In this document: piece after piece, positions 25,241 through 58,745 of the stretch
Numbering within the stretch: position 1 is the first letter of the stretch
Layout of the letters: every line of letters begins with the position of its first letter
Virus record (IMG/VR): IMGVR_UViG_3300012988_000003
Coordinates: 1-64,000 of that record
DNA from: a virus
DNA: 64,000 nt
Direction: 5' to 3' (one strand)
Made by a program: the position numbers and the translations under genes
Notes under the pieces: generated by a model
What the model saw: only the letters and a program-made list of their open reading frames with translations
What the model was told of the DNA's origin: nothing
Databases searched by the model: none

Positions 25241-25822
25241 GTGTCCCGAGACCAACAGAAAAAAGTGACAAACGCCGGTCTGGCGAACAGCGCAGCCGAT
25301 CAGGCCAACGCAGCCGCATCATTCGCCGGTACCAACAAAGCACTCGGCGATTACTCGAACCGGCTCAATGAATTCATCGCGGCCAACCCATACAAAGCCG
25401 GTGGCGAGTTCGCGCAGGATCAGTCCCAGATTGCGGCATCGGCGGCAGACACCAGCTCCAACGCCATCAGAGACAAACTCGCGCGCGATGCAATAACGTC
25501 TGGCGAAAACACCGGCGGGTACGCGAACAACGTCGCCGAAGCGCAGCGGCAAGCCACCCGGGACCAGGCGACACACATGGCCGGTGCGGATGCTTCGCGC
25601 ATTGGGGCCAAGAGCGCGTACGACAAGGCAGGGCTTGACGCCAGCGCGTTACCGGCAGACCTGCAAGCCAGGCTCTACGGTACGTCGATCTCTGGGGCGA
25701 ACGGAGCGCTTGGAGTGGCTGGGGATTCGGCCAAGACACCATCATTCCTCGATCGGCTGGGCGGTAGCTTTGCCGACGCATTCGGCAAGACGCTTGCTAC
25801 CGGAACAGGGGGCAACGGTTAA
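25241..25822 (+). CDS. Internal virion (ejection) protein, gp14-like position
   Basis: 193 residues from GTG 25241 with GGAACC upstream. Strongly Ala/Asn/Gly/Gln-rich helical sequence (AADQANAAASFAGTNKALGDYSNRLNEF) ending in a glycine-rich tail. Similar size, composition and place as T7 gp14, the first of the internal core proteins that exit with the DNA. The exact identity is not provable by eye. Confidence 0.55.
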   Translation: MSRDQQKKVTNAGLANSAADQANAAASFAGTNKALGDYSNRLNEFIAANPYKAGGEFAQDQSQIAASAADTSSNAIRDKLARDAITSGENTGGYANNVAEAQRQATRDQATHMAGADASRIGAKSAYDKAGLDASALPADLQARLYGTSISGANGALGVAGDSAKTPSFLDRLGGSFADAFGKTLATGTGGNG

Positions 25823-25825
25823 CCC

Positions 25826-27454
25826 ATGCCAGAAACCCAGGACTATACCTCAGATCAACCGATGACTCTCGGCCAGCGGCTGTTGCGCACCCGTGGCGCA
25901 GCCGCGCTCGAAGACGATCCCACTGGCGAACCGAGCACCGGAGCCACGCCCAACACCAAAGAACCGCACCAGAACACCGGCGCGGCGGCACAGGGCGACT
26001 CGGCGGCACAGGCACCATCCGGTAAGTCATCCATCGGTCAGCGCATGCTCGGCGGATCGAATCCCACATCCGGGATCACGGCCCATAACAATGACGGTTC
26101 ACCGGCAGAGATGGCGACCGGGACAGACGCAGCAGGACGTCCGACGATCAGCGTCAAGCCGACAACCCCAGCAGCTCCGACCATCGGCCAGCGCCTTGCG
26201 AACTTCAAAGCACCGCCAGCAGCACCGCAGCTTGATCCCGGTTACTCTGCTGCTCAGGAATCGGTACGCAAAGACGCGGTAGTTACACCGAAAGTCGATG
26301 CCCAGGGGAACACGCTTCAGCAGTACAAGCCGGGATTCGGTACACGGCTGCTGCGCGGAGTCTCTGACCTGATGACTGGTGGCATACCGGGAGTTCTTAG
26401 GGGCGCGGTCGATCCAACGGCACCCGGGTTCTACGGCAAAGGCGCAGTGAACAACCAGTACACCAAAGATGAGATTGCACGCAACAACCGCCTCAACGCC
26501 GACAAAGAAGCCGTGAAGTCCATGGACGATGAATTCAGCCAGAAAGAAAAAGGCTACGGCCACGAGCTGACCAGCTACAACGATGAAGCGCGCGCGGCAG
26601 GAAAAGCCGACTCGGACGAGATTAGGAATAAGTACCAGACCGACCTCAATACCGAGCGCACCGCCCACAATAAAGAGACAGAAGACTTGCGGGCCGAAAA
26701 CAACGACCTCAAGGCCAAACCTAAGACCTACGAGGAATACGTCGGTGCCCTCGAAAACGAGAAGGACCCGGGCAAGAAGGCCGTCCTGCAGCGCGTAGTG
26801 GACCGTCTGGAAAAACAGAAGACAGCCGGCAAGGGGCCGAAGCTCTCAGCCAAAGACCAGTTGAAGCTCGATGCCTACATGCAGGACAACAAGATTGAGG
26901 ACGTCGCCGACATGACCTCGGCTGACATCCAGAAAGCGTTGGCCAGCGGGAACGGCGCAGCGCACACCAAAGATCGCCAGAGTTTTGAGGATCACTGGGC
27001 AAAACGGTACCAGGATGTAGAGAAGCGGTACGATTCCCAGCGCCAAGCAGTCTTGAAATCCTTTGGAGCCGACAAGGATCCCAAACAGTTCGAGAGCAAC
27101 AAGGACGAAATTCAGCCCAAGCTGGCCGACATCGAAGCCAAGCGGGAAGCGGACAAGTCAGCGCTCCAGTCCGAGAAAGACAAGGAAGCCGAGCAGTATC
27201 AGGTTTACGGGAAGCCAGCGAAGCAACAGAGCGCAGCGCCCGCGGCGTCACCAGCACAATCCGAAGATTCAAAGATTGAGCAGCCTATAGCTTCGGTTCG
27301 TACCGGAGCGCCAGCACAGCAGAAGCCGTCTCCGGCAACACCGGGAGCGAAATCAATCAGTAAGGCCGATGTGCAAGCTCTGGCCCAGAAGCACGGTCTG
27401 AGTTATGAAGATGCGGCCAAGCAGTTCACCGGAAAAGGGTACGCGATCAACTAG
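25826..27454 (+). CDS. Internal virion protein with three GQR tags
   Basis: 542 residues. The first 130 are disordered and carry TLGQRLLRTR (from residue 14), SIGQRMLGGS (from 69) and TIGQRLANFK (from 119), matching the tags of the small proteins at 6778 and 6971. Residues 140-200 are hydrophobic and Gly-rich (TRLLRGVSDLMTGGIPGVLRGAV). Residues 200-440 are a long charged coiled coil. The C-terminus has a small helical domain (ISKADVQALAQKHGLSYEDAAKQF). Position matches the T7 gp15 slot. The tags may dock it to capsid or core. Confidence 0.6.
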   Translation: MPETQDYTSDQPMTLGQRLLRTRGAAALEDDPTGEPSTGATPNTKEPHQNTGAAAQGDSAAQAPSGKSSIGQRMLGGSNPTSGITAHNNDGSPAEMATGTDAAGRPTISVKPTTPAAPTIGQRLANFKAPPAAPQLDPGYSAAQESVRKDAVVTPKVDAQGNTLQQYKPGFGTRLLRGVSDLMTGGIPGVLRGAVDPTAPGFYGKGAVNNQYTKDEIARNNRLNADKEAVKSMDDEFSQKEKGYGHELTSYNDEARAAGKADSDEIRNKYQTDLNTERTAHNKETEDLRAENNDLKAKPKTYEEYVGALENEKDPGKKAVLQRVVDRLEKQKTAGKGPKLSAKDQLKLDAYMQDNKIEDVADMTSADIQKALASGNGAAHTKDRQSFEDHWAKRYQDVEKRYDSQRQAVLKSFGADKDPKQFESNKDEIQPKLADIEAKREADKSALQSEKDKEAEQYQVYGKPAKQQSAAPAASPAQSEDSKIEQPIASVRTGAPAQQKPSPATPGAKSISKADVQALAQKHGLSYEDAAKQFTGKGYAIN

Positions 27455-27871: not shown

Positions 27872-30800
27872 ATGCCAACTGAAACACCAGACCTCGTAAG
27901 CGAGTTCGAGGATCAAAAACAATCCGCGCCCGATCTAGTCAGCGAGTTTGAGCAGCAGAAGACCGCCCAGCAGCGTCCCGACTTCACCCAGGAAGCGCTT
28001 TCCGGAAAGCTGGCACCAGCAGCCGGTAAGCCGCAAGAACCGAGCGACGGATACTTTACCAATCCGCGCACCGGTATCAGGTCGAAGATGTCAGCCGTTC
28101 CGGAAGCGGACATGGTTCCAATGGTGGATCCTGCCCGGCTAACCACTACTGGACCGGAGCAGATAGTCGGCGGCGGAAGCGATATTATTGACGCAGAGAA
28201 GCAGACAAGACAGGAACCGGGAACCTTTTATAGAAATCCCCGCACTGGCATAAAATCACCGGTTTACTCCCTCCCAGAAGATGCCCGCCGAAAAGAAGTC
28301 GCAGGAGCCGCAGATGTCCTTAGCGGTGTAGGTGACGTGTCAATGCCGCTTGTCGGAGCCTCTGCTTTATCGGCTCCAGTTAAGACCGCAGCTGGATTTG
28401 CCGCGGGAGCAGCACTTAGCGCCGGGGCAGGCAAAGCGGTTCATGGCAAGGTGTCACCGGAAGATGAATCTCTTATTCGGGCAGTGGCTCAATTCATTCC
28501 TTCGGCCGCCGCAGTGGCATCTGGACTTGAGGTCACAGCCGGACGCACACCAGAAGGCGGCTACGCTGCAGGCGCAAAAGCGTTTGGTGGAAAATTTGGA
28601 GCCGCGGTACGCTCAACGCCAGAAGCCTTCGAAGGCGCTGTGAAGGCAGGCGATACTCGGATAGGTGCATCCATCCCGCGCAACGGCGCGCAAGCACCAG
28701 CAGCCACCCAGCCGCCAGCTCTGGACGAAGCTACCGCCGCGATGGTCCGCTACGAGCAGAATGCTGGGAACATACCGAAGCCACCTCCTCCGGTACCGCC
28801 ACCGACCCCAGGCCAGCAATTCGGCAACAAGCTCTCCGGTGATCAGGTAGACCATTTAGCCCAGACCATCGCCAAGGCACCGCCGGAATCTCAGAATGCT
28901 CTTATAGAAGAAGCGCACACCAACCTCACAAAATGGATTTTGGAAAACAATGGCCATGTCTACATTGGGGGCAAGGTCATCCTAGCCAAAAGCCCGGACC
29001 AGGTTGAAGCCTTATCGGCCAAGATCATCAATGACGCTTCGAGCGCGCACGATAAAGCGCAAGACTTAGCGGCCAAGGAAGCCGAGAAAGCCGCCAAGGA
29101 ACAAGGGAAGCAGACTACCGCGAAAACTGCCCGGCCATCAGCGCCATCGCCTGCTCCTAAGCCTGCTGCCGCTCCAGCCAAGGTCGAAGCACAGCCAAAA
29201 GCCGAAGCGCCACAAAGCCAGCCAGCAGCCGAGAAACCGGTTGTGCAAAAGGTTGAGGAAAAGCCGCAGACTTCCCAAAATCCGACCGCAAATGAGGGAG
29301 CAAAACAGGAAGTAAAGCCCGTCCACGACTTCGCTTCGACTCAGGTAAACATCGATCCCAAGAGCGAACTTGGCCAGCAGCACGCGCAAGCAGTCGCGGC
29401 CATGCCTGAGGATCACATCGGGCCAAACGGCAAAGAAGATACGCCGCATGTCACGGTGCGCTACGGGTTGAAGGATGACTCGCCGGAAGCTATCGCCAAG
29501 ATCAAAGAGGCAGCTTCGAAGGTTGCGCCGTTTGAGGCCACGGTCGGCAAAACCAGTTCCTTCCCCGCCACCAAAGAAGGCGACCGTCCGATCATCGCGC
29601 ATGTTGAGAAATCACCAGAACTTAACGCCTTGCGTTCAGCCGTTGAGGGAGCAGGAGATTTCAAGGAAAACACGCACGGTGAGTACAAGCCGCACGTCAC
29701 TCTGGGCTACGTAAAGCCAGAGCATGTTGCCAAGTACGAGGGCGGCAACCATCTGGAAGGCGGCAAGGTTCCAGTCGATCACGTCACGGTAACAAAGCGC
29801 GATGGAACCAGCGAAACAATCAAACTCGGCGGTAAGCCAGTTCCAGACCTTGTATCCGAGCACGAAGCCGCTCCTGACCTTGTAGCCGAACACGAAGCGC
29901 AGCCGGAGCGCCGGACCAGCGAGGATCGCAAACCGGAGAATGCCGCCCTGCGCGCCAAGTTCGACAAGATGACGCCGGAGGAAAGAAGCAAGGCGTTAGT
30001 CGAGTACCACGAACGGGAAAGAACCAGTGAGAAGACCGGGCTGCCCAATCTCAAGGCATTCGAGGAAGACGCGGCTACCATGGCCGAGTCTCACCCTCAC
30101 GTTGGCTATGCAGACGTTGACGACTTCAAGCAGTACAATAATGCGCTTGGTCACCAGGGAGTAGACCAGGCGGTACTTCCGGCCATTGGCAAACTATTTG
30201 CTGATGCTGCCAACAAGGAACCGAATGGAAGCGTAAAGGTCTACCATCGCTCCGGTGACGAGTTCAATTTCAGATCGAAAACGCCGGAAGCCATCAAGCG
30301 GGTAGTTGGCCGGGTAAACCAAGAGCTCGCCGCAACCACGTTTAAATATCAGACCAAAGACGGTAAGATCGTCGAGAAGAAAGGTACAGGGCTCAAGCAT
30401 GGCATCGGAAGCGACCACGAATCAGCCGAAGCAAACTCAGAAATCGACAGCAAGCTCCGAACCGAAAACGGACAGCGCAGCGGAGCCCGCGACGTACCAG
30501 CGGTGGATTCACCAGGTACCGGAGGGAAGCAAGCTCCTGTCGGTGACGACACCGGACGGAACGGAGTATCCGGTAAAATAACCCGAGAAGGAATTCCTCT
30601 AAGCGATAAAGAGCAGTCTGAATATTCGCAGCAGAAATGCCACGCTCTAACTGCTGCAATGATGCAGTTCGCGCCAGCGGGAGAGCCGCTCGTCGTCGCC
30701 TCCGCATCTGATCCATCATCAATCGCGCATAGCGCATTCCGCATTCCGCACACTGACACGGTTGTAGATTCAAGCGGAGCCTACAAGGGCGTAGAAGCTT

Positions 30801-33800
30801 TCAGGCAGTCGGCGGCGCAACGCTTCAATCTCGGCGAAGATGCCACTGTACGGACAGCGACCGAATCAGAAATCCATAAGATGGTTCCCGGTGTCCCGAA
30901 GGCGAGGGCCATCGGGCAGGCGGCTTCACCCGCAAAGCGGCTTCTCGCATGGGGAGACTCTGTTGCCGGACGGAACGGAGTACAAGGTGGATCAGGAGAA
31001 AGCGGAACCAAAGAAGTAGCACCGACTGATACCGCCTCTGAGAAGAAGCGCATCTACGCCGAGATTCAAACTCTCAACAAAGAGCGCAATTCCATCGGCT
31101 TCAAGATCGACGCCGACCGCATCAATCCCAGCGCAGAAACCAAAGCACTCGTCGAACGCCACACCGAGCTCTCGCGCAAAATCCACGCACTCGATGACGA
31201 AGTAGCCAAGCTGGACGGCCAGCCAACCCGCGCAGAAAAATCAGCCATCGCCAAAAAGGAAGCCGAGAAGCCATTCGGTGAGCGCCCGAAAGAAGCCTTG
31301 AAGTATGGCGATGTTGGCCAGTCTCAGCCGTGGCAGGTTTTAGAAAAAGACTTCATTGCTAAGCGGTTCGAGAGCCAAGCCGAGAGCTACAAACGGGCTA
31401 TCGCGGACAAAGAAAAAGAAGTCGCGGCACTGAAGCCGGGAACAGCCAAACGTATAAGCGAAGAATCCAGTTTGAAATTCTGGAAAGAACGTCTCGTCAA
31501 ACTTAAGGCTGGAGACGATCCGCGCATTGCGCAGGAGTTTCGCAATGCCTACATCAAGACCGTAAAGGATGCTATCAGCCACGGTAAGCCGGTGCCTCAG
31601 TCCGTCATTGACCAGCACCCGGAATTTACCAAGGCGCAGACCTCACGCGAGACCTACGAGAAGGGTCGCCACACATCATTCTCTAACCGGTCTGTCGCCA
31701 TCAACGACACGATGCAGAAAGAGTTGGGCTTCAAGGCCAAGCGGCAGGATGGCAAGCCAATCACCGATGCGCAGATAAAAGAAATCCACAACTCGGTGAA
31801 GGATGTCGAGAGTGTGATTGGGTCGCTGGCCGACATCATGCGCGGTGTTGATCTAACCATTGCGCACACAAACGGCAAGTTCCCGTTCCTGATGTCTGAC
31901 GCCGCTGGCTTGTTTTCTGAGACCGACAAGCGTATCACGGTCGGACTTGAAAGCATGTTCAGCGCCAAGCCGATTCCAGTGTTCGCCCATGAGATCGCCC
32001 ACATGATCGACATTAAGGGCGGCAACCTGCTCGGAGAAACCACGCGAGTCTTCTCCAAGGGCGGCAAAGGGTACGAGAGTTCGTCGCTGGCAGAGGCCGA
32101 AGCAAAGAGCTATAAGAGTGACCTGATTCGCGAGGCTACTGGCACGATCAACAAGATGCGCGAAGTTCGTGCACTACTGAAGGCCAAAAAGACTGAAGAC
32201 CTCACGCCGGAAGAAAAACTTGAGATCGAAAGCGCGAAGGTAAAACTCGGTCCCTACTGGCGTGACCCACGCGAGGTGTTTGCCCGACTGTTCGAGCAGT
32301 ACATCGCCAACAAGCTTGGCAAGGTCAGCGATGCCGCGCAGAGCCCACAGACCTACGCAAAGCAGCCAGGATACTGGACACAGGATCAGTTCGAAAAGTT
32401 CATCCCGAAGATTGAGTCAGAGATCAACCGCCGTCTCGATGCCCTGCACGCAAAATACGGCAAGCCAGGGACTGAAGGCCCAAGGGCTGGAAATGGAGTA
32501 ACGCCTGCCCAGACAGAGGAGCCAGTAAAGCAGCCGAAGATGACCGAGGCTGAAGTTGATGCGATGGTCGCCAAAGACTACGCTGAGGCCAACGATACAG
32601 GTAAAGTACGCAGCAGGATTTACAACACCATCCTTGCTTCTGCGGAAAAGAAGTTCAGTAAGGGCGAGATCACCAAGAAACAACTTGATGACATAAGGGA
32701 AAAATACGGCCCAGTCCGCGACTCAAGCACCACACAAAAGATTAACCGCTCCGTAAAGGGCAAACCCTCAGAGCGCGGATTTGCCCATCTGGACATTCCC
32801 TCGGTACTGGCGCACGGTGTAGCTGATCCAGTTACCAGCTTCGTAAAAGACACCATCAAACAGACAGCCGAATCTCGCTCGGTAGACGACAAGCTCTTCG
32901 GTCTCTCCAAGCAGTATGAAGCCGATGTGCTGCGCGCCATCGAACTGATGAAGCAGGTCGGGCCGCTCTCGACACCGGAAGATCAGGCGGCAATCTATCA
33001 CCATCTGGAAGACTCCAGCGTACCGCTTGACTCAAAGCAGCAGGCCGTTCTCGACAAGATCGTCAAACCTTTGATGCAACAGTCCTCGGCCATCCGGTCA
33101 GAACTGAATACCGCCGGTGTACCGATGGGCGAAGAAGGCTACGTCCACCGCGTTGTGCAAGGAAAGTCGTCACAGCTTGAACGGGCGATGCGCGGCAAGC
33201 AGGGAACCGGCAAAGGAAATGTACTCTCAAGATCCGCAGCGTCACTGAAGCAGCGCAAGATGTTCGCGCTCGAAGACGAAGACGGCAACCGGCAAGTCGT
33301 CGCGATGGAAGGCGGCAGAATTACCGGATTCAAGAATGGGGCGCCGGAAGACCTCGGCGCCAGCCCGCGTCTCAAAGTTGGCGACAACTTCAACGACAAG
33401 ACCGCCAAACCGTGGACACTCCAGCAGGCCACCACCAAAGAGATTGAAGCGGCCACAAGCCTGAAGTATTACAAGAACGCTCTGGCCTCCGCGGTGACCG
33501 ACTACCTGCAACTGCTGCGGGCCAAGCGCGCGAACGATGCGCTTGAATCCATGAAGTCCGATCCCGGCTTCAACCAGATGGCATTCAAGAGCGAAAAAGG
33601 TTCGATGCCGCCGGAAGGATGGCGGTCCGTTGATCTGCCGCAGTTCCGCGATTACTACTTTGAGCCGCACATGGCCGAAGTATTGAACCGCTTCGCCAAA
33701 GAACTGCACCCGGACCCGGTGACATTCCTAGAGAAGGTCGGTAACTTCATGACCGCTTCTCTGTTGCTGAATCCGATCCGGCACGTCTACAACATCGGCA

Positions 33801-34876
33801 ATCACTGGCTGGTAGAACGCGGCGTCTCCGGCACATTCAACCCGCTCACCTGGCCGACAGCAGCAAAGGCCGGAATGAAAGCAATCAAGGCCGTAGTCAA
33901 CCAGAACGAAGATTTTCTGTCTGCTCTCGATCACGGCGCACCGATGATGTCGCACCGGACAGACCTGCAACAACTGCACCATGAACTATTCCAGACCATC
34001 GTCGGCCATCTCGAAAAGAACCCATCTATCGCCAACAAGATTGCGGAACTTGTCGGCTACGACAAAGCAGGCCCGGAAGATACCGGAGTGGTCAACGCGG
34101 TCGCCCGCGGCACCGGACTGCGCATGCTGAACAACGTGCGCAAGCTCGGCCAGAAAGCCATGTGGATGTCGAACGACATGATGATGCTCCAATCGGCTTA
34201 CGAGAAGATGGCCGGAAACCCGAGCCTGACTTTTGAAGACGCGATGGCTCAGACCGAGAAGCACATCCCGAACTACCGCATCCCGACCAGGATCCTGAAC
34301 TCAAAAGCCATGGGCGATTTTATGGGCTCGCGGCTGGCCTCGATGTTTGGACGGTACCACTACGGAGTTTGGCGGTCCTACGGCGAAATGCTGAAGGAAT
34401 CGCTCGGCCCGGACAGCACACCGAAAGAACGCCTCAAGGGCCTTGATCACATGATCATGCTCGGGATGATTACTTTCCTGATGTACAAGCTCGTGGACGA
34501 GGTACTGAAAAAGATCACCGGAGATCACGACGCACGCATGGTTCGCTCCGGCGCATCGGCAGCGCCGAACTCGATAAAGGAAATCATTCAGGGTCACGAA
34601 GACCCGAGCCAGCTTCTGCGCAACACGTTCACGCCGGCCATCCTGCCGCAAGCCACGGCAGAGGCAATGTTTAACCGTGACTTCTTCTCTGGCGCTCCGG
34701 TACGCAACCCGAAGCACAGCGCTGGGAAGCAAGTCATCGACGTGAGCAAGCATTTTATGAACGCTCTCGGCCCGGTGCAGCAGTACAACCATGCCACCCG
34801 TAACAGCCACCCCGCAAAGTCATTCCTGTTATCACAGGTCGGCGTGAGCACCAGCCATCCCAAGAAACACCGATAG
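27872..34876 (+). CDS. Giant polyvalent internal protein (2H phosphoesterase, GGDEF-like, Cys-His-Asp, HEXXH domains)
   Basis: 2334 residues. Two PDLVSEFE repeats occur at residues 6-30 and two PDLV(S/A)EHE repeats near 658-675. NPRTGI occurs twice before residue 130. Residues about 145-190 are hydrophobic and Gly/Ala-rich. Residues about 500-640 form a 2H phosphoesterase (2'-5' RNA ligase-like), with HVTV at 526 and HVTL at 608. Residues about 710-850 resemble a GGDEF domain (EKTGLPNLKAFE, ADVDDFKQYN, SGDEF at 794-798). Cys923-His953-Asp966 could be a papain-like triad. HEIAH at 1373 with a downstream acidic helix (DPREVFARLFEQY) suggests a zincin. Residues 1560-2334 resemble large-polyvalent-protein C-terminal domains (RHVYNIGNHW). 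It sits in the T7 gp16 slot, so it is probably ejected into the host. Confidence 0.75.
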   Translation: MPTETPDLVSEFEDQKQSAPDLVSEFEQQKTAQQRPDFTQEALSGKLAPAAGKPQEPSDGYFTNPRTGIRSKMSAVPEADMVPMVDPARLTTTGPEQIVGGGSDIIDAEKQTRQEPGTFYRNPRTGIKSPVYSLPEDARRKEVAGAADVLSGVGDVSMPLVGASALSAPVKTAAGFAAGAALSAGAGKAVHGKVSPEDESLIRAVAQFIPSAAAVASGLEVTAGRTPEGGYAAGAKAFGGKFGAAVRSTPEAFEGAVKAGDTRIGASIPRNGAQAPAATQPPALDEATAAMVRYEQNAGNIPKPPPPVPPPTPGQQFGNKLSGDQVDHLAQTIAKAPPESQNALIEEAHTNLTKWILENNGHVYIGGKVILAKSPDQVEALSAKIINDASSAHDKAQDLAAKEAEKAAKEQGKQTTAKTARPSAPSPAPKPAAAPAKVEAQPKAEAPQSQPAAEKPVVQKVEEKPQTSQNPTANEGAKQEVKPVHDFASTQVNIDPKSELGQQHAQAVAAMPEDHIGPNGKEDTPHVTVRYGLKDDSPEAIAKIKEAASKVAPFEATVGKTSSFPATKEGDRPIIAHVEKSPELNALRSAVEGAGDFKENTHGEYKPHVTLGYVKPEHVAKYEGGNHLEGGKVPVDHVTVTKRDGTSETIKLGGKPVPDLVSEHEAAPDLVAEHEAQPERRTSEDRKPENAALRAKFDKMTPEERSKALVEYHERERTSEKTGLPNLKAFEEDAATMAESHPHVGYADVDDFKQYNNALGHQGVDQAVLPAIGKLFADAANKEPNGSVKVYHRSGDEFNFRSKTPEAIKRVVGRVNQELAATTFKYQTKDGKIVEKKGTGLKHGIGSDHESAEANSEIDSKLRTENGQRSGARDVPAVDSPGTGGKQAPVGDDTGRNGVSGKITREGIPLSDKEQSEYSQQKCHALTAAMMQFAPAGEPLVVASASDPSSIAHSAFRIPHTDTVVDSSGAYKGVEAFRQSAAQRFNLGEDATVRTATESEIHKMVPGVPKARAIGQAASPAKRLLAWGDSVAGRNGVQGGSGESGTKEVAPTDTASEKKRIYAEIQTLNKERNSIGFKIDADRINPSAETKALVERHTELSRKIHALDDEVAKLDGQPTRAEKSAIAKKEAEKPFGERPKEALKYGDVGQSQPWQVLEKDFIAKRFESQAESYKRAIADKEKEVAALKPGTAKRISEESSLKFWKERLVKLKAGDDPRIAQEFRNAYIKTVKDAISHGKPVPQSVIDQHPEFTKAQTSRETYEKGRHTSFSNRSVAINDTMQKELGFKAKRQDGKPITDAQIKEIHNSVKDVESVIGSLADIMRGVDLTIAHTNGKFPFLMSDAAGLFSETDKRITVGLESMFSAKPIPVFAHEIAHMIDIKGGNLLGETTRVFSKGGKGYESSSLAEAEAKSYKSDLIREATGTINKMREVRALLKAKKTEDLTPEEKLEIESAKVKLGPYWRDPREVFARLFEQYIANKLGKVSDAAQSPQTYAKQPGYWTQDQFEKFIPKIESEINRRLDALHAKYGKPGTEGPRAGNGVTPAQTEEPVKQPKMTEAEVDAMVAKDYAEANDTGKVRSRIYNTILASAEKKFSKGEITKKQLDDIREKYGPVRDSSTTQKINRSVKGKPSERGFAHLDIPSVLAHGVADPVTSFVKDTIKQTAESRSVDDKLFGLSKQYEADVLRAIELMKQVGPLSTPEDQAAIYHHLEDSSVPLDSKQQAVLDKIVKPLMQQSSAIRSELNTAGVPMGEEGYVHRVVQGKSSQLERAMRGKQGTGKGNVLSRSAASLKQRKMFALEDEDGNRQVVAMEGGRITGFKNGAPEDLGASPRLKVGDNFNDKTAKPWTLQQATTKEIEAATSLKYYKNALASAVTDYLQLLRAKRANDALESMKSDPGFNQMAFKSEKGSMPPEGWRSVDLPQFRDYYFEPHMAEVLNRFAKELHPDPVTFLEKVGNFMTASLLLNPIRHVYNIGNHWLVERGVSGTFNPLTWPTAAKAGMKAIKAVVNQNEDFLSALDHGAPMMSHRTDLQQLHHELFQTIVGHLEKNPSIANKIAELVGYDKAGPEDTGVVNAVARGTGLRMLNNVRKLGQKAMWMSNDMMMLQSAYEKMAGNPSLTFEDAMAQTEKHIPNYRIPTRILNSKAMGDFMGSRLASMFGRYHYGVWRSYGEMLKESLGPDSTPKERLKGLDHMIMLGMITFLMYKLVDEVLKKITGDHDARMVRSGASAAPNSIKEIIQGHEDPSQLLRNTFTPAILPQATAEAMFNRDFFSGAPVRNPKHSAGKQVIDVSKHFMNALGPVQQYNHATRNSHPAKSFLLSQVGVSTSHPKKHR

Positions 34877-34886
34877 GAAGTACCTC

Positions 34887-35363
34887 ATGTCCGAAGAAGT
34901 AAAAGAAGTAAAACTTAAACCGCTGACCAAGAAGCAACTTCAATTTGTTTCCTTCTGGGAAGGGAACAATACCGACGCAGCACGCAAGGCAGGCTTGAAA
35001 CATCCGAACGTCGCCGGCGCGAAGATGATGAAATTCCCAGCGGTCAAGGCAGCAATCGAAGCCAAACAGAAAGCCATGGTCCAGTATTCCGGCGAGGAAG
35101 TGGCCAAGCGCGCGAAGGTCGGGCGTGGCGATGTCATCGAATGGCTCGCCAACGTAGCACGCACCAGCAAGAACGAATTCGCAGTAGTTTCAGCATGCGG
35201 TCATCTTTCCGAGATATTCGGAATGAAAGTGAAGCAAATCCGTGACGTTACAGACCTCTTTGAAGGCTGGAACGACGAAGAGCTTGAGGCTTACTCCCGC
35301 ACAGGAGAGTTACCTCAACGACTCAAATCTGGAAGCAAGGGCGAGAGCCCGGCTTCTATTTGA
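34887..35363 (+). CDS. terS: Terminase small subunit
   Basis: 158 residues with a GGAAGTACCTC-ATG start. LTKKQLQFVSFWEGNNTDAARKAGLKHPNVAGAKMM is the classic DNA-binding helix-turn-helix of Terminase_2-type small subunits (xTxKQxxFxxxYxxxxNxxxAAxxAGYS). It recognises the packaging site and recruits the large subunit. The C-terminus overlaps the start region of the ATPase gene by up to 121 bp. This is typical packaging gene order. Confidence 0.85.
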   Translation: MSEEVKEVKLKPLTKKQLQFVSFWEGNNTDAARKAGLKHPNVAGAKMMKFPAVKAAIEAKQKAMVQYSGEEVAKRAKVGRGDVIEWLANVARTSKNEFAVVSACGHLSEIFGMKVKQIRDVTDLFEGWNDEELEAYSRTGELPQRLKSGSKGESPASI

Positions 35364-36030
35364 GCAGCGCCGTAAGCGCTTAGCTCGCCAGAAGCAATTA
35401 GAGTCTCAGGTTAATGCTGCAACCGCTCAGCCCTACACCTGGCTTACCGAATACACTCTAACCTTCAACGAGCACTGGCAAGAGGAAAACCGGCCCAACC
35501 CTTACGAGCCTTTCCCGAAGCTGCCATATTTCCAGCCCCTCTTAGAAATATTCCAGAACGAACGAATAATCCTGATCGAGAAGTCCCGCGACATGATGAT
35601 CTCGTGGGCCTGCGTCGGCTACCTGCTCTGGGAAGCCATGCGCACACCGGAGCGCGGCATCGTCCTGCAAACACTCAAAGAGGACAAAGTAGCGCAACTG
35701 GTCGAGTACGCGAAGTGTCTCTACCGCTGCCAGCCGGACTGGCTCAAAGAATATTTCCCGTTGGCCAAACCGCTAGAACGTCAGGGCGCACTCGAACTGG
35801 AATTTAAGAATGGCGCCTATGTCGTCGGCCTGCCCGGTGGCGCGGACCAGGTTCGCTCCTATCACCCATGGGGCTATATGAATGACGAAAGCTCATTCCA
35901 GCCCGAAGCAGGAGAATGCTACAACGAAGCGCTGGCGGCCGTAAAAGGCAAGCTGATCTTTAACAGCTCGGCTGGTCCCGGCTGGTTTGCCGATTTCCGT
36001 CGTGACGTTGTTCGCAACGAAGAAGACTAA
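35242..36030 (+). CDS. terL: Terminase large subunit, ATPase half
   Basis: 262 residues from GTG 35242 (TTG 35284 is an alternative). It carries the translocation ATPase: Walker A-like EKSRDMMISW (Lys114), the helix WACVGYLLWEAM, a coupling segment (GIVLQTLKEDKVAQLVEYAKCLY) and Walker B GYMNDESS (Asp215-Glu216). It stops at 36030, where TAATG joins it to the next gene. The reading frame contains no nuclease residues, so the enzyme is completed by the following gene. The pair (262 + 381 residues) equals a normal TerL length. Confidence 0.85.
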   Translation: MTLQTSLKAGTTKSLRLTPAQESYLNDSNLEARARARLLFEQRRKRLARQKQLESQVNAATAQPYTWLTEYTLTFNEHWQEENRPNPYEPFPKLPYFQPLLEIFQNERIILIEKSRDMMISWACVGYLLWEAMRTPERGIVLQTLKEDKVAQLVEYAKCLYRCQPDWLKEYFPLAKPLERQGALELEFKNGAYVVGLPGGADQVRSYHPWGYMNDESSFQPEAGECYNEALAAVKGKLIFNSSAGPGWFADFRRDVVRNEED

Positions 36031-37175
36031 TGGACACCATCCAGACGCTAGAGAAAACCAAAACCGTACCGGCACAAACGCAGGTGGAACTCGTGCGCGG
36101 GATGACCTTGCGCCGTACCAAGGGCGGCATCCCTGTCACGCGCATTCACTACTCGGCCAATCCAGAGCGGGATCCCGACTTGAACCCGGAGTGGAAGCGG
36201 TCAGAACGAGCTGCCTACAGCTCCGAAGCATCATGGCAGCGTGAACAGGAAATAGTTGACGAGGCTGGTGGTGGAGAGCTCGTATTTGCTGACACGCTCG
36301 TCTCCCACTGGAACAAGATTGTCATTACCGATCCAGCATGGCGGCCTGATCCATTCTGGCGCGTCGATGCTGGCTTCGACCATGGCAAGACAAATCCAAC
36401 GGCATTCGGTCGCTGCTACGTCGATTACGAAGGCGTGCAGTACTTCTGCGGCGAGTACTACCAACCCGGAAAGGAAATATGGGAGCATGCCCCGGTAATG
36501 AAGTCGATGGCCGACTACGACAAGATTGGCGATGCCTACGCCGACCCGACCATCTTCCCTCAGATCATGCAGCAGTCTCAGGGCAACGGGCCGGAGCGCG
36601 CAAAATCTGTCAATGATCTATATGTCGAGGCCGGAGTCTCCATCCTGCAGCCGTTTGCCGGTGATCGCTCGGACATCAGCTTCTCGGCACGCATGATGCT
36701 GCACTGGTCGAACCTTGGGCCAGCCGACTACCTGCTAAAAAACAAGACACCGGAAGAGCGCAAGGAGATGCTGAAGGACTACCGCAAGCCAACAGTCCGA
36801 ATCGTCTGCCGCAACTATTCCGACAAGCCGCAACCGGGGCTACATGACTGGGACTCGCCAAACCTGCTTTGGGAGTTGATGCGGACCAGGCGCGTGAAAC
36901 TTTCAGCCCAGCAACTCCTGAGCCGGAATGCCGCTGAAGCGATTGTCGATAAAGACAACCACGCCAGAGATTACTGCAAATACACGACGATGAGCCACCC
37001 GGCGCCGTCGAAGAAAACTCCGGCACAGATTGCCGCAGAAGAAGTTAAAGGGCTTGACGCTACGAGTGCCATGGTGCGCTACCAACAGGTGCTCGAAAGA
37101 GAAGAAAGTAAATCAAGCACGGCCCCGGTAGCTTTAGGCCGGCGCGGGCTGATGAACGCAAGAAGGAACCGCTAG
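36030..37175 (+). CDS. terL: Terminase large subunit, nuclease half
   Basis: 381 residues, ATG overlapping the ATPase stop by one base. RVDAGFDHGKTNPTAFGRCY (Asp113) opens the RNase H-like nuclease, ADPTIF supplies the second aspartate (Asp172), and DKDNHARDYCKY the last acidic cluster (about 307-315). It cuts DNA at packaging start and end. The tail beyond residue 340 is extra and includes ATSAMVRYQQ, echoed in the giant internal protein. A natural gene split is likelier than an assembly frameshift because the second part has its own ATG in a coupled TAATG junction. Confidence 0.85.
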   Translation: MDTIQTLEKTKTVPAQTQVELVRGMTLRRTKGGIPVTRIHYSANPERDPDLNPEWKRSERAAYSSEASWQREQEIVDEAGGGELVFADTLVSHWNKIVITDPAWRPDPFWRVDAGFDHGKTNPTAFGRCYVDYEGVQYFCGEYYQPGKEIWEHAPVMKSMADYDKIGDAYADPTIFPQIMQQSQGNGPERAKSVNDLYVEAGVSILQPFAGDRSDISFSARMMLHWSNLGPADYLLKNKTPEERKEMLKDYRKPTVRIVCRNYSDKPQPGLHDWDSPNLLWELMRTRRVKLSAQQLLSRNAAEAIVDKDNHARDYCKYTTMSHPAPSKKTPAQIAAEEVKGLDATSAMVRYQQVLEREESKSSTAPVALGRRGLMNARRNR

Positions 37176-58270: not shown

Positions 58271-58344
58271 GCGGGTTTGGTATAGGGGCTGTGCCCCGGT
58301 CTTCCAAACCGGAGACGCTGGTTCAAGTCCAGCAACCCGCTCCA
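58271..58344 (+). tRNA. tRNA-Gly(UCC)
   Basis: Acceptor GCGGGTT pairs with AACCCGC; anticodon stem-loop CCGGT-CTTCCAA-ACCGG; T-loop TTCAAGT; encoded CCA. Decodes GGA. Confidence 0.9.
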
Positions 58345-58348
58345 ATGA

Positions 58349-58424
58349 GCCTGGGTAGCTCAGACGGCAGAGCGCCGCCCTCGTAACGCGGAGGTCGCCG
58401 GTTCAACTCCGGCCCTTGGCTCCA
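58349..58424 (+). tRNA. tRNA-Thr(CGU)
   Basis: Starts GCCTGGG, anticodon loop CTCGTAA, T-arm GCCGG-TTCAACT-CCGGC, ends TCCA. One acceptor mismatch and a weak closing pair in the anticodon stem. Decodes ACG. Confidence 0.85.
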
Positions 58425-58426
58425 GA

Positions 58427-58500
58427 GCCTCTGTAGTTTAGTGGCAGAATACGCGCATGGTAAGCGCGTGGCCTGGGTTCGATTCCCAGCGTTGGCTCCA
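58427..58500 (+). tRNA. tRNA-Thr(GGU)
   Basis: Anticodon stem CGCGC/GCGCG with loop ATGGTAA; T-arm CTGGG-TTCGATT-CCCAG; CCA encoded. The acceptor stem has two non-paired positions, so it may fold weakly. Decodes ACC and ACU. Confidence 0.8.
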
Positions 58501-58506
58501 AAGTTT

Positions 58507-58583
58507 GCCGGTCGCAGCAGTGTTGGAACTGCACTCGCCTTGTAAGCGAGAGTAAGCGGGTTCGACTCCCGTCGCCGGCTCCA
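58507..58583 (+). tRNA. tRNA-Thr(UGU)
   Basis: Anticodon stem CTCGC/GCGAG with loop CTTGTAA; T-loop TTCGACT; starts GCCGGTC, ends GCCGGCTCCA. Decodes ACA. Third threonine tRNA in a row. Confidence 0.85.
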
Positions 58584-58589
58584 AAATGT

Positions 58590-58664
58590 GGGCGCGTAGT
58601 GTTAGCGAGAGCACGGCCGGCTTGCACCCGGTAGGCGCTGGTTTGAATCCAGTCGTGTCCACCA
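58590..58664 (+). tRNA. tRNA-Ala(UGC)
   Basis: Acceptor GGGCGCG/CGTGTCC with G-U pairs; anticodon loop CTTGCAC on stem GCCGG/CCGGT; T-loop TTTGAAT; ACCA end. Decodes GCA. Confidence 0.85.
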
Positions 58665-58668
58665 ATGT

Positions 58669-58745
58669 CGGGGTGTCGGGTAATCCGGTCGCCCACATGC
58701 CTTGGGAGCATGCTTATGGAGGTTCAAATCCTCTCACCCCGACCA
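58669..58745 (+). tRNA. tRNA-Pro(UGG)
   Basis: Acceptor CGGGGTG/CACCCCG (7 bp perfect), anticodon stem CATGC/GCATG with loop CTTGGGA, T-loop TTCAAAT, ACCA end. Decodes CCA. Confidence 0.9.

Follow-up and report, generated by a model that had tools for sequence, protein, structure and literature searches.

Polyvalent phage proteins, in which several unrelated enzyme domains are joined in one chain, were described by Iyer, Burroughs and Aravind in 2017, and the passages of that paper used here cover 2H, GGDEF, zincin, ART and ParB-like domains (PMC5512222). Its authors proposed a possible role for 2H domains in opposing nucleotide signalling and, for zincins, a role in processing the chain. A second point of comparison is provided by the ejected virion RNA polymerases (vRNAPs) of N4-type phages, which contain no cysteine, an absence that was tied by the authors to injection (PMC2784036, PMC3915230). 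Here, a soil phage protein with features of both systems is described from a 64,000-nucleotide stretch (the window), which corresponds to positions 1 to 64,000 of the 69,003-base IMG/VR virus record IMGVR_UViG_3300012988_000003. The protein, referred to as W, is encoded by the open reading frame (ORF) at 27872..34876 and consists of 2334 amino acids, of which one is cysteine. All protein-coding features with window coordinates lie on the + strand, and L-numbers denote related loci fetched for comparison.

W is best explained as a polyvalent ejection protein with an exchangeable anti-signalling payload, a reading to which a probability of roughly 0.6 was assigned. An initial annotation, made from the DNA sequence, had proposed an internal phage protein with four enzyme domains. 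ORF translation confirmed its borders and length, and all the residues named in it were found in place, namely HVT at 526 and 608, SGDEF at 794-798, C923, H953, D966 and HEIAH at 1373; an additional HVT at residue 637 is not conserved. Profile searches, named in it as a check, placed the 2H and GGDEF domains above the Pfam cut-offs, and PHROGs matched the HEIAH region with zincin-type families, so that W holds at least two unrelated enzymatic domains in one chain. Two of the four domains are thus firm and the zincin is probable, while the Cys/His/Asp enzyme has no detectable relatives.

W does not represent a new class, since polyvalent proteins with its domain types have been known since 2017, and the initial idea is an instance of that published concept because 2H, GGDEF and zincin polyvalent proteins were already covered (PMC5512222). 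The likeness consists in several unrelated enzyme domains per chain, encoded beside virion genes. The difference is that no 2H-GGDEF pair is described in the passages of that paper used here, while the pair was found in 11 contigs in the present set; the terms "tandem" and "cysteine" are absent from its text. Within the open-access literature, the recurrent 2H-GGDEF pair, peptide tags with internal copies, and cysteine exclusion beyond vRNAPs appear to be new.

Relatives were collected by profile scans with ParB-like and 2H queries, and the sampling was conditional on these domains. The scans yielded 160 viral and 38 genome loci, which overlap. Nearly all relatives are metagenomic contigs, and the first start codon in each ORF was taken as the start. 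A search with PADLOC gave no match.

Membership of W residues 495-655 (29354..29836) in the 2H phosphoesterase superfamily is secure. The Pfam family 2_5_RNA_ligase2 covered residues 513-645 with an E-value of 1.2e-15, and the two catalytic-type HxT motifs are located at residues 526-528 (nt 29447-29455) and 608-610 (nt 29693-29701). In an alignment with 64 relatives, most of which share 30-45% identity with W, the only invariant columns were H526, T528, G532, P607, H608 and T610. An AlphaFold model of the domain built with these relatives reached a mean predicted local distance difference test (pLDDT) score of 95.1, and its nearest solved folds were 2H-type enzymes, as expected from the initial annotation of residues 480-650. 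By Foldseek, these were the penguinpox cGAMP phosphodiesterase, the plant cyclic phosphodiesterase (CPDase), Usb1 and LigT, with Acb1 ranking lower. A 2H sequence profile compared with the PDB gave Acb1 (9q2g, E 4e-5) and YjcG as top matches, and the Acb1 match is to be read as relatedness only. Single-sequence phmmer searches with the 2H and zincin regions gave no match in the PDB. Some of the BFVD matches are 2H domains that belong to long phage proteins of structural type, one of them a "capsid morphogenesis protein".

Acb1 employs a tetrad of two HxT motifs (PMC9117128), and W shares with it the 2H fold, this tetrad and a phage origin. In contrast to W, Acb1 is a small stand-alone protein, while the 2H part of W is a domain within a virion-type giant that falls below the Pfam Acb1 cut-off. 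The domain is very probably an active phosphodiesterase, and the odds that its substrate is a defence nucleotide are about even. Loci from Brevundimonas and Caulobacter encode mostly small 2H proteins of 175-280 amino acids, probably cellular and LigT-type, and were excluded as polyvalent relatives.

The GGDEF fold of residues 710-880 (29999..30511) is equally secure. The Pfam GGDEF match to residues 721-833 scored 26.2 bits (cut-off 23.8), and a profile compared with the PDB retrieved solved diguanylate cyclases (E 3e-7). An AlphaFold model of residues 480-1010, based on five sequences, had an overall pLDDT of only 57.7; the GGDEF part scored about 80-90 over most of its length, and all 50 of the 50 best PDB matches of this model in Foldseek were GGDEF proteins, with E-values down to 9e-7 (DgcB). 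The GGDEF-like assignment of residues 690-870 in the initial annotation was thereby borne out. Across nine aligned relatives, D748, D750, K753, N756 and GDEF 795-798 are kept, and position 765 is Asp or Asn. By comparison with PleD, these residues would include metal and guanine ligands. The first residue of the motif (SGDEF in W, 30251-30265) is mostly Lys in the other relatives; L101, like W, has Ser.

Within the superfamily of GGDEF-type enzymes, Asn recognises guanine and Ser adenine (PMC12657218). The W domain shares the fold and most catalytic-type residues with diguanylate cyclases, and differs from them by Ser or Lys in place of the first Gly and by the lack of an RxxD I-site at the usual position. 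It probably binds a guanine nucleotide; whether it would also act as a synthase is an evenly balanced question. The initial annotation had it acting on nucleotide second messengers, and since the synthase residues are kept, making or binding a guanine nucleotide is likelier than destroying one. Sequence relatives of the domain also occur as stand-alone GGDEF-like proteins of Yuavirus and Vojvodinavirus phages (AN14_48, CN1), of which the Yuavirus proteins differ in being small and in lying outside the virion gene block. Those of Pseudomonas phage AN14 (32198-32668, L216) and Bordetella phage CN1 (L217) adjoin an annotated antirestriction gene.

The initial annotation had suggested that a 2H and a GGDEF-like domain in one virion protein would be a striking anti-defence device. 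The pair is not a one-off, as both domains were found on the same polypeptide in 11 phage contigs, a count that includes the near-duplicates L028 and L030. The 2H domain comes first in eight of them (W, L002, L011, L026, L028, L030, L101 and L111), mostly separated from GGDEF by about 35-75 residues, and the GGDEF domain comes first in three (L102, L119 and L149). In these three, the GGDEF-like domains occupy residues 893-1035, 666-809 and 745-884, respectively. Within the set selected by the ParB-like domain, which is unrelated to both, four of six 2H proteins carried GGDEF as well (hypergeometric P about 0.007, ignoring relatedness). The pair came to light in profile searches; a viral scan with the W GGDEF sequence alone returned no relative. 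Over the 2H and GGDEF region, W and L101 are 51% identical.

Three IMG/VR relatives, one of which is present twice, match the N-terminal and C-terminal parts of W and differ in the middle. The conserved C-terminal part, residues 1651-2334 (32822..34873), is 88, 81 and 56% identical in these relatives. The middle contains 2H, GGDEF-like, ParB-like and ART-PolyVal domains in L002/L004, GGDEF-like and ParB-like domains in L003, and in L011 a 2H domain, an ART-like stretch (recognised by eye), a GGDEF-like and a ParB-like domain. The payload is thus exchanged between conserved ends. No match came from an initial scan of genomes with a profile of the C-terminal part.

A further feature of these proteins is a short motif of 5-13 residues that is specific to each phage and stands in two or three copies at the very start of the chain (the tag). 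In W, PDLVSEFE occurs at residues 6-13 (27887..27910) and again at residues 20-27 (27929..27952), a tandem repeat with p 0.005 against shuffles, and the two copies show five synonymous and no amino-acid differences. Related copies, PDLVSEHE at residues 658-665 (29843..29866) and PDLVAEHE at residues 668-675 (29873..29896), separate the 2H from the GGDEF domain. Other phages have DDLGFVA, DIFDQVA, SAPLDDLDQ, TLDPSEV, LPAGLFDP and others. Tandem N-terminal repeats with p<=0.01 against shuffles were found in 29 of 49 long 2H proteins and in 3 of 120 other ORFs.

With motifs picked partly by eye for 47 tagged proteins, 25 internal copies were counted in 19 of them, compared with 1.4 expected from motif swapping, and all 25 lie outside the 2H and GGDEF domains. 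Recurrence at domain borders was seen in W, L101, L023, L086, L120, L140 and others; the copies flank GGDEF in L101 and 2H in L120 and L140. The motif from the N-terminus of W recurs at its 2H-GGDEF junction, and the homologous junction of L101 has the N-terminal motif of L101 instead. Between N-terminal copies within proteins, 82 changes are synonymous and 16 alter the amino acid, a ratio biased by the selection of copies for similarity; because synonymous differences are present, most copies are not recent DNA duplications.

The tag was also found in a separate neighbouring gene in two phages only (L002 ORF 7731, L031 ORF 4568). A general presence in neighbouring genes was dropped as a candidate, as these were the two convincing cases and no excess over swapped tags was seen. 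In both phages a small gene just ahead of the polyvalent gene opens with the same motif as the latter (L002 7731-7898; L031 4568, 244 amino acids), and the L002 product resembles the C-terminal end of the 542-amino-acid protein encoded upstream of W. No report of such tags was found in the open-access literature. In T4, a short N-terminal peptide, the capsid targeting sequence, marks internal proteins for the head. The likeness is in concept only, since the W-type motif is tandem, varies from phage to phage and recurs within the chain. A function for the tag is somewhat favoured, and it may serve head loading, processing, or both.

The position of the gene resembles that of T7 gp16, as the initial annotation had noted. 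A weakly matching major-head-like gene and other structural genes are followed by genes for proteins of 193 amino acids (25241..25822, gp14-like slot) and 542 amino acids (25826..27454, gp15-like slot), then W, then the small and large terminase genes, an order of T7 type. Both proteins preceding W lack cysteine. As with T7 gp16, W thus closes a set of three internal-type genes ahead of the terminase genes; it differs in that neither a sequence match to gp16 nor a lytic transglycosylase domain was detected with Pfam and PHROGs. In the Autographiviridae phage P-SCSP1g of Prochlorococcus, the equivalent slot encodes a 2563-amino-acid protein that contains a domain homologous to the ParB-like one of the payload.

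Cysteine was almost excluded from the tagged proteins. Only 14 cysteines were counted in 124,793 residues of the 47 tagged relatives (none in 36 of the 47), compared with 0.91% in the remaining ORFs of these loci, which corresponds to a depletion of about 80-fold; Trp was normal at 0.94%. Such proteins span 700-4100 residues, for example L113 6385-18207 and L002 7899-15680, and untagged 2H proteins were richer in cysteine (Mann-Whitney P 2e-4). Cysteine is likewise missing from the proteins in this slot in P-SCSP1g, Ruegeria phage 45A6 (partial) and Vibrio phage D478. The N4 vRNAP is a giant, ejected, multidomain protein without cysteine and with an HExxH domain (PMC2784036, PMC12633501), traits in which W as interpreted here is alike; no RNA polymerase domain was found in W, which has a different payload. 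The proposed injection with the DNA is supported, indirectly but strongly, by the gp16-like slot and by cysteine exclusion, for which the N4 vRNAP is a precedent, and W is very likely an ejected virion protein.

The region around HEIAH (31988-32002) is probably a zincin of the polyvalent type, located at residues 1300-1490 (31769..32341). PHROG_22901 matched residues 1256-1384 (E 2.3e-9), and PHROG_4529, annotated as "minor head protein and DNA pilot", matched residues 1304-1485 (E 5e-5). An LPD1-like PREVFARLFEQYI lies at about residues 1466-1478, where the Pfam LPD1 match (1460-1483) was sub-threshold. No relatives of this region were detectable among viral sequences or fetched proteins, and the HExxH motifs in several other proteins of the fetched set stand in differing contexts. 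The initial annotation had the zincin cutting host proteins; cleavage of the polyvalent protein itself is at least as likely in view of the processing role proposed in the passages used of Iyer et al. 2017 (PMC5512222), and processing of the W chain is a possibility rated slightly short of even.

The candidate Cys-His-Asp enzyme at residues 905-985 (30584..30826) is the weak one of the four domains. No family match or conserved Cys-His-Asp set was found, and no relatives were detected in Pfam, PHROGs, the PDB, phages or the fetched loci; matches to L057 and similar proteins were discarded as tail-fibre-like repeats. The one fact that speaks for it is that C923 (30638-30640) is the sole cysteine of W, whose protein class is nearly devoid of this residue.

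Taken as a mechanism, W would be a polyvalent ejection protein encoded in the T7-gp16-like slot of a podovirus-like, temperate phage; it would be taken up into the head, pass through the tail in threaded form and reach the cell together with the DNA. The conserved N-terminus and the C-terminal 680 residues would form the carrier, and the exchangeable middle would comprise the 2H, the GGDEF, possibly a Cys enzyme, and the zincin. The 2H domain would most likely cleave an oligonucleotide signal of host immunity (a cyclic dinucleotide or a 2'-5'/2',3'-cyclic species), and the GGDEF domain would bind GTP and make, or at least bind, a guanine (cyclic) nucleotide as a reset of host signalling or a decoy. 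The zincin would most likely cut the long chain into working pieces, and the phage-specific motif would be a recognition tag for head loading or zincin processing. Several host defences might in this way be attacked at once, as the initial annotation had supposed.

Two other readings keep the enzymes and change their purpose. The 2H domain could work on RNA, as an injected Usb1/LigT-like RNase or end trimmer in early RNA repair or degradation, with GGDEF as an accessory nucleotide binder. The TM-scores of Usb1, LigT and CPDase, which equal or exceed that of Acb1, agree with this, as do the six tRNA genes of the phage and the suggestion of a Usb1-like RNase, made alongside 2'-5' oligoadenylate degradation, in the passages used of Iyer et al. 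2017 (PMC5512222). However, Acb1 was the top sequence-profile match in the PDB, no RNA ligase or end-healing partner was found among the scanned ORFs, and its recurrent association with GGDEF suggests a role in nucleotide signalling, so that this reading is considered rather unlikely. Somewhat less probable still, the GGDEF domain could raise the cell's level of cyclic di-GMP (c-di-GMP), or of a nucleotide like it, just after infection and alter receptors, motility or the lysis-lysogeny decision, with no anti-defence role and with 2H as an independent tool. Such a role would suit the guanine-type Asn and metal-type Asp residues, the missing I-site for product inhibition, a probably temperate phage, and the three phages in which GGDEF and 2H stand apart in reversed order. 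It is opposed by the eight phages with 2H before GGDEF, mostly at short distance, and by the replacement of the first Gly in nearly all members.

The remaining readings deny a function to parts of the chain. Were the enzyme-like domains degenerate fillers and W a structural ejection or conduit protein only, the conduit role of T7 gp16-type proteins, the varying payload among close relatives and the unconserved first GGDEF position would be accounted for. Both HxT motifs are nevertheless invariant in 64 sequences and the DxD, Asn and GDEF residues in nine, which argues for strong selection on active-site residues and makes this reading very improbable. As for the tags, they could be functionless relics of gene duplication or fusion, since motifs of the start type would be expected at internal borders once modules had fused; the rarity of copies in separate neighbouring genes also fits. 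The preponderance of synonymous changes, in copies picked by similarity, runs against this, and so does the junction shared by W and L101, because relics would not track the N-terminal motif of each phage. Relics are therefore an unlikely explanation, and a polyvalent ejection protein with an anti-signalling payload and functional tags is preferred.

Several points weigh against this preferred reading. W is known here from its sequence, the zincin from sequence profiles and the Cys region from its residues. With the Pfam Acb1 model, whose cut-off is 27 bits, W scored only 11.8 (E 0.2), and the 2H fold fits RNA-processing enzymes such as Usb1 and LigT too. The activity of the GGDEF domain is uncertain because of the altered first Gly, and processing by an internal zincin is not general, as close relatives lack the zincin. 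An Acidobacteriota host is suggested by the relatives L178, L179 and Tunturi_5 only.

If the reading is true, an Acb1-type counter-defence enzyme arrives with the genome, preceding phage gene expression, and could therefore be at work ahead of the onset of CBASS-like signalling. With the recurring 2H-GGDEF pair, it can be tested directly if phages, besides destroying nucleotides, also supply them. In Panoptes, the removal of cyclic dinucleotides can itself trigger host death; its OptS/mCpol is a host-side GGDEF/Cas10-like cyclic-dinucleotide synthase, and the system fires when Acb proteins remove the product (PMC12657218, PMC12657230). The GGDEF motif is nearly lost in mCpol, whereas W keeps GDEF and its carrier is a phage. 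Speculatively, it would be reasonable for a phage to supply nucleotides as well as destroy them, because such removal can trigger Panoptes death. A broader and doubtful proposal is that giant ejection proteins of many phages are exchangeable enzyme cassettes with a phage-specific peptide barcode, present two or three times at the N-terminus and again where cassettes meet, and read by the phage's own packaging or processing machinery, each particle delivering separately tagged enzymes, with 2H removing alarm nucleotides while GGDEF supplies one, possibly without tripping Panoptes-like guards. The tags and cysteine exclusion would provide two sequence-only marks of ejected cargo in metagenomes, and the tags a possible handle on the loading or cutting of giant proteins.

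The phage is probably temperate, as an integrase gene is present. An acidobacterial host is likely, because the two best genome matches were prophages in metagenome-assembled genomes of Acidobacteria (L178, L179) and because the cultured phage Tunturi_5, whose host is Tunturiibacter, encodes a 2H domain, a zincin motif and ART-like stretches in one protein among head and tail genes. The Tunturi_5 protein is a relative in its 2H domain, but it has no tag and does contain cysteines.

The late gene surroundings of W also include a head decoration gene. The 542-amino-acid protein contains its own repeat (TLGQRLL, SIGQRML, TIGQRLA). Together with the upstream neighbours at L011 4349-5707 and L156 4757-6208, it shows a repeated, more basic motif (TLGQRLL, SIGQRML and TASRLIPR across the three loci). 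The terminase small subunit is encoded at 34887..35363 (PHROG_51, E 1e-10). The large subunit at 35242..37175 is apparently divided into two ORFs (35242-36030 and 36030-37175; PHROG_2, E 4e-8, and PHROG_5653, E 0.0016), a split also seen in L011 (14202-16045), while L002 and L003 have one ORF of 506 amino acids there. The six tRNA genes are clustered at window positions 58271-58745 and comprise one for Gly, three for Thr (isoacceptors), one for Ala and one for Pro.
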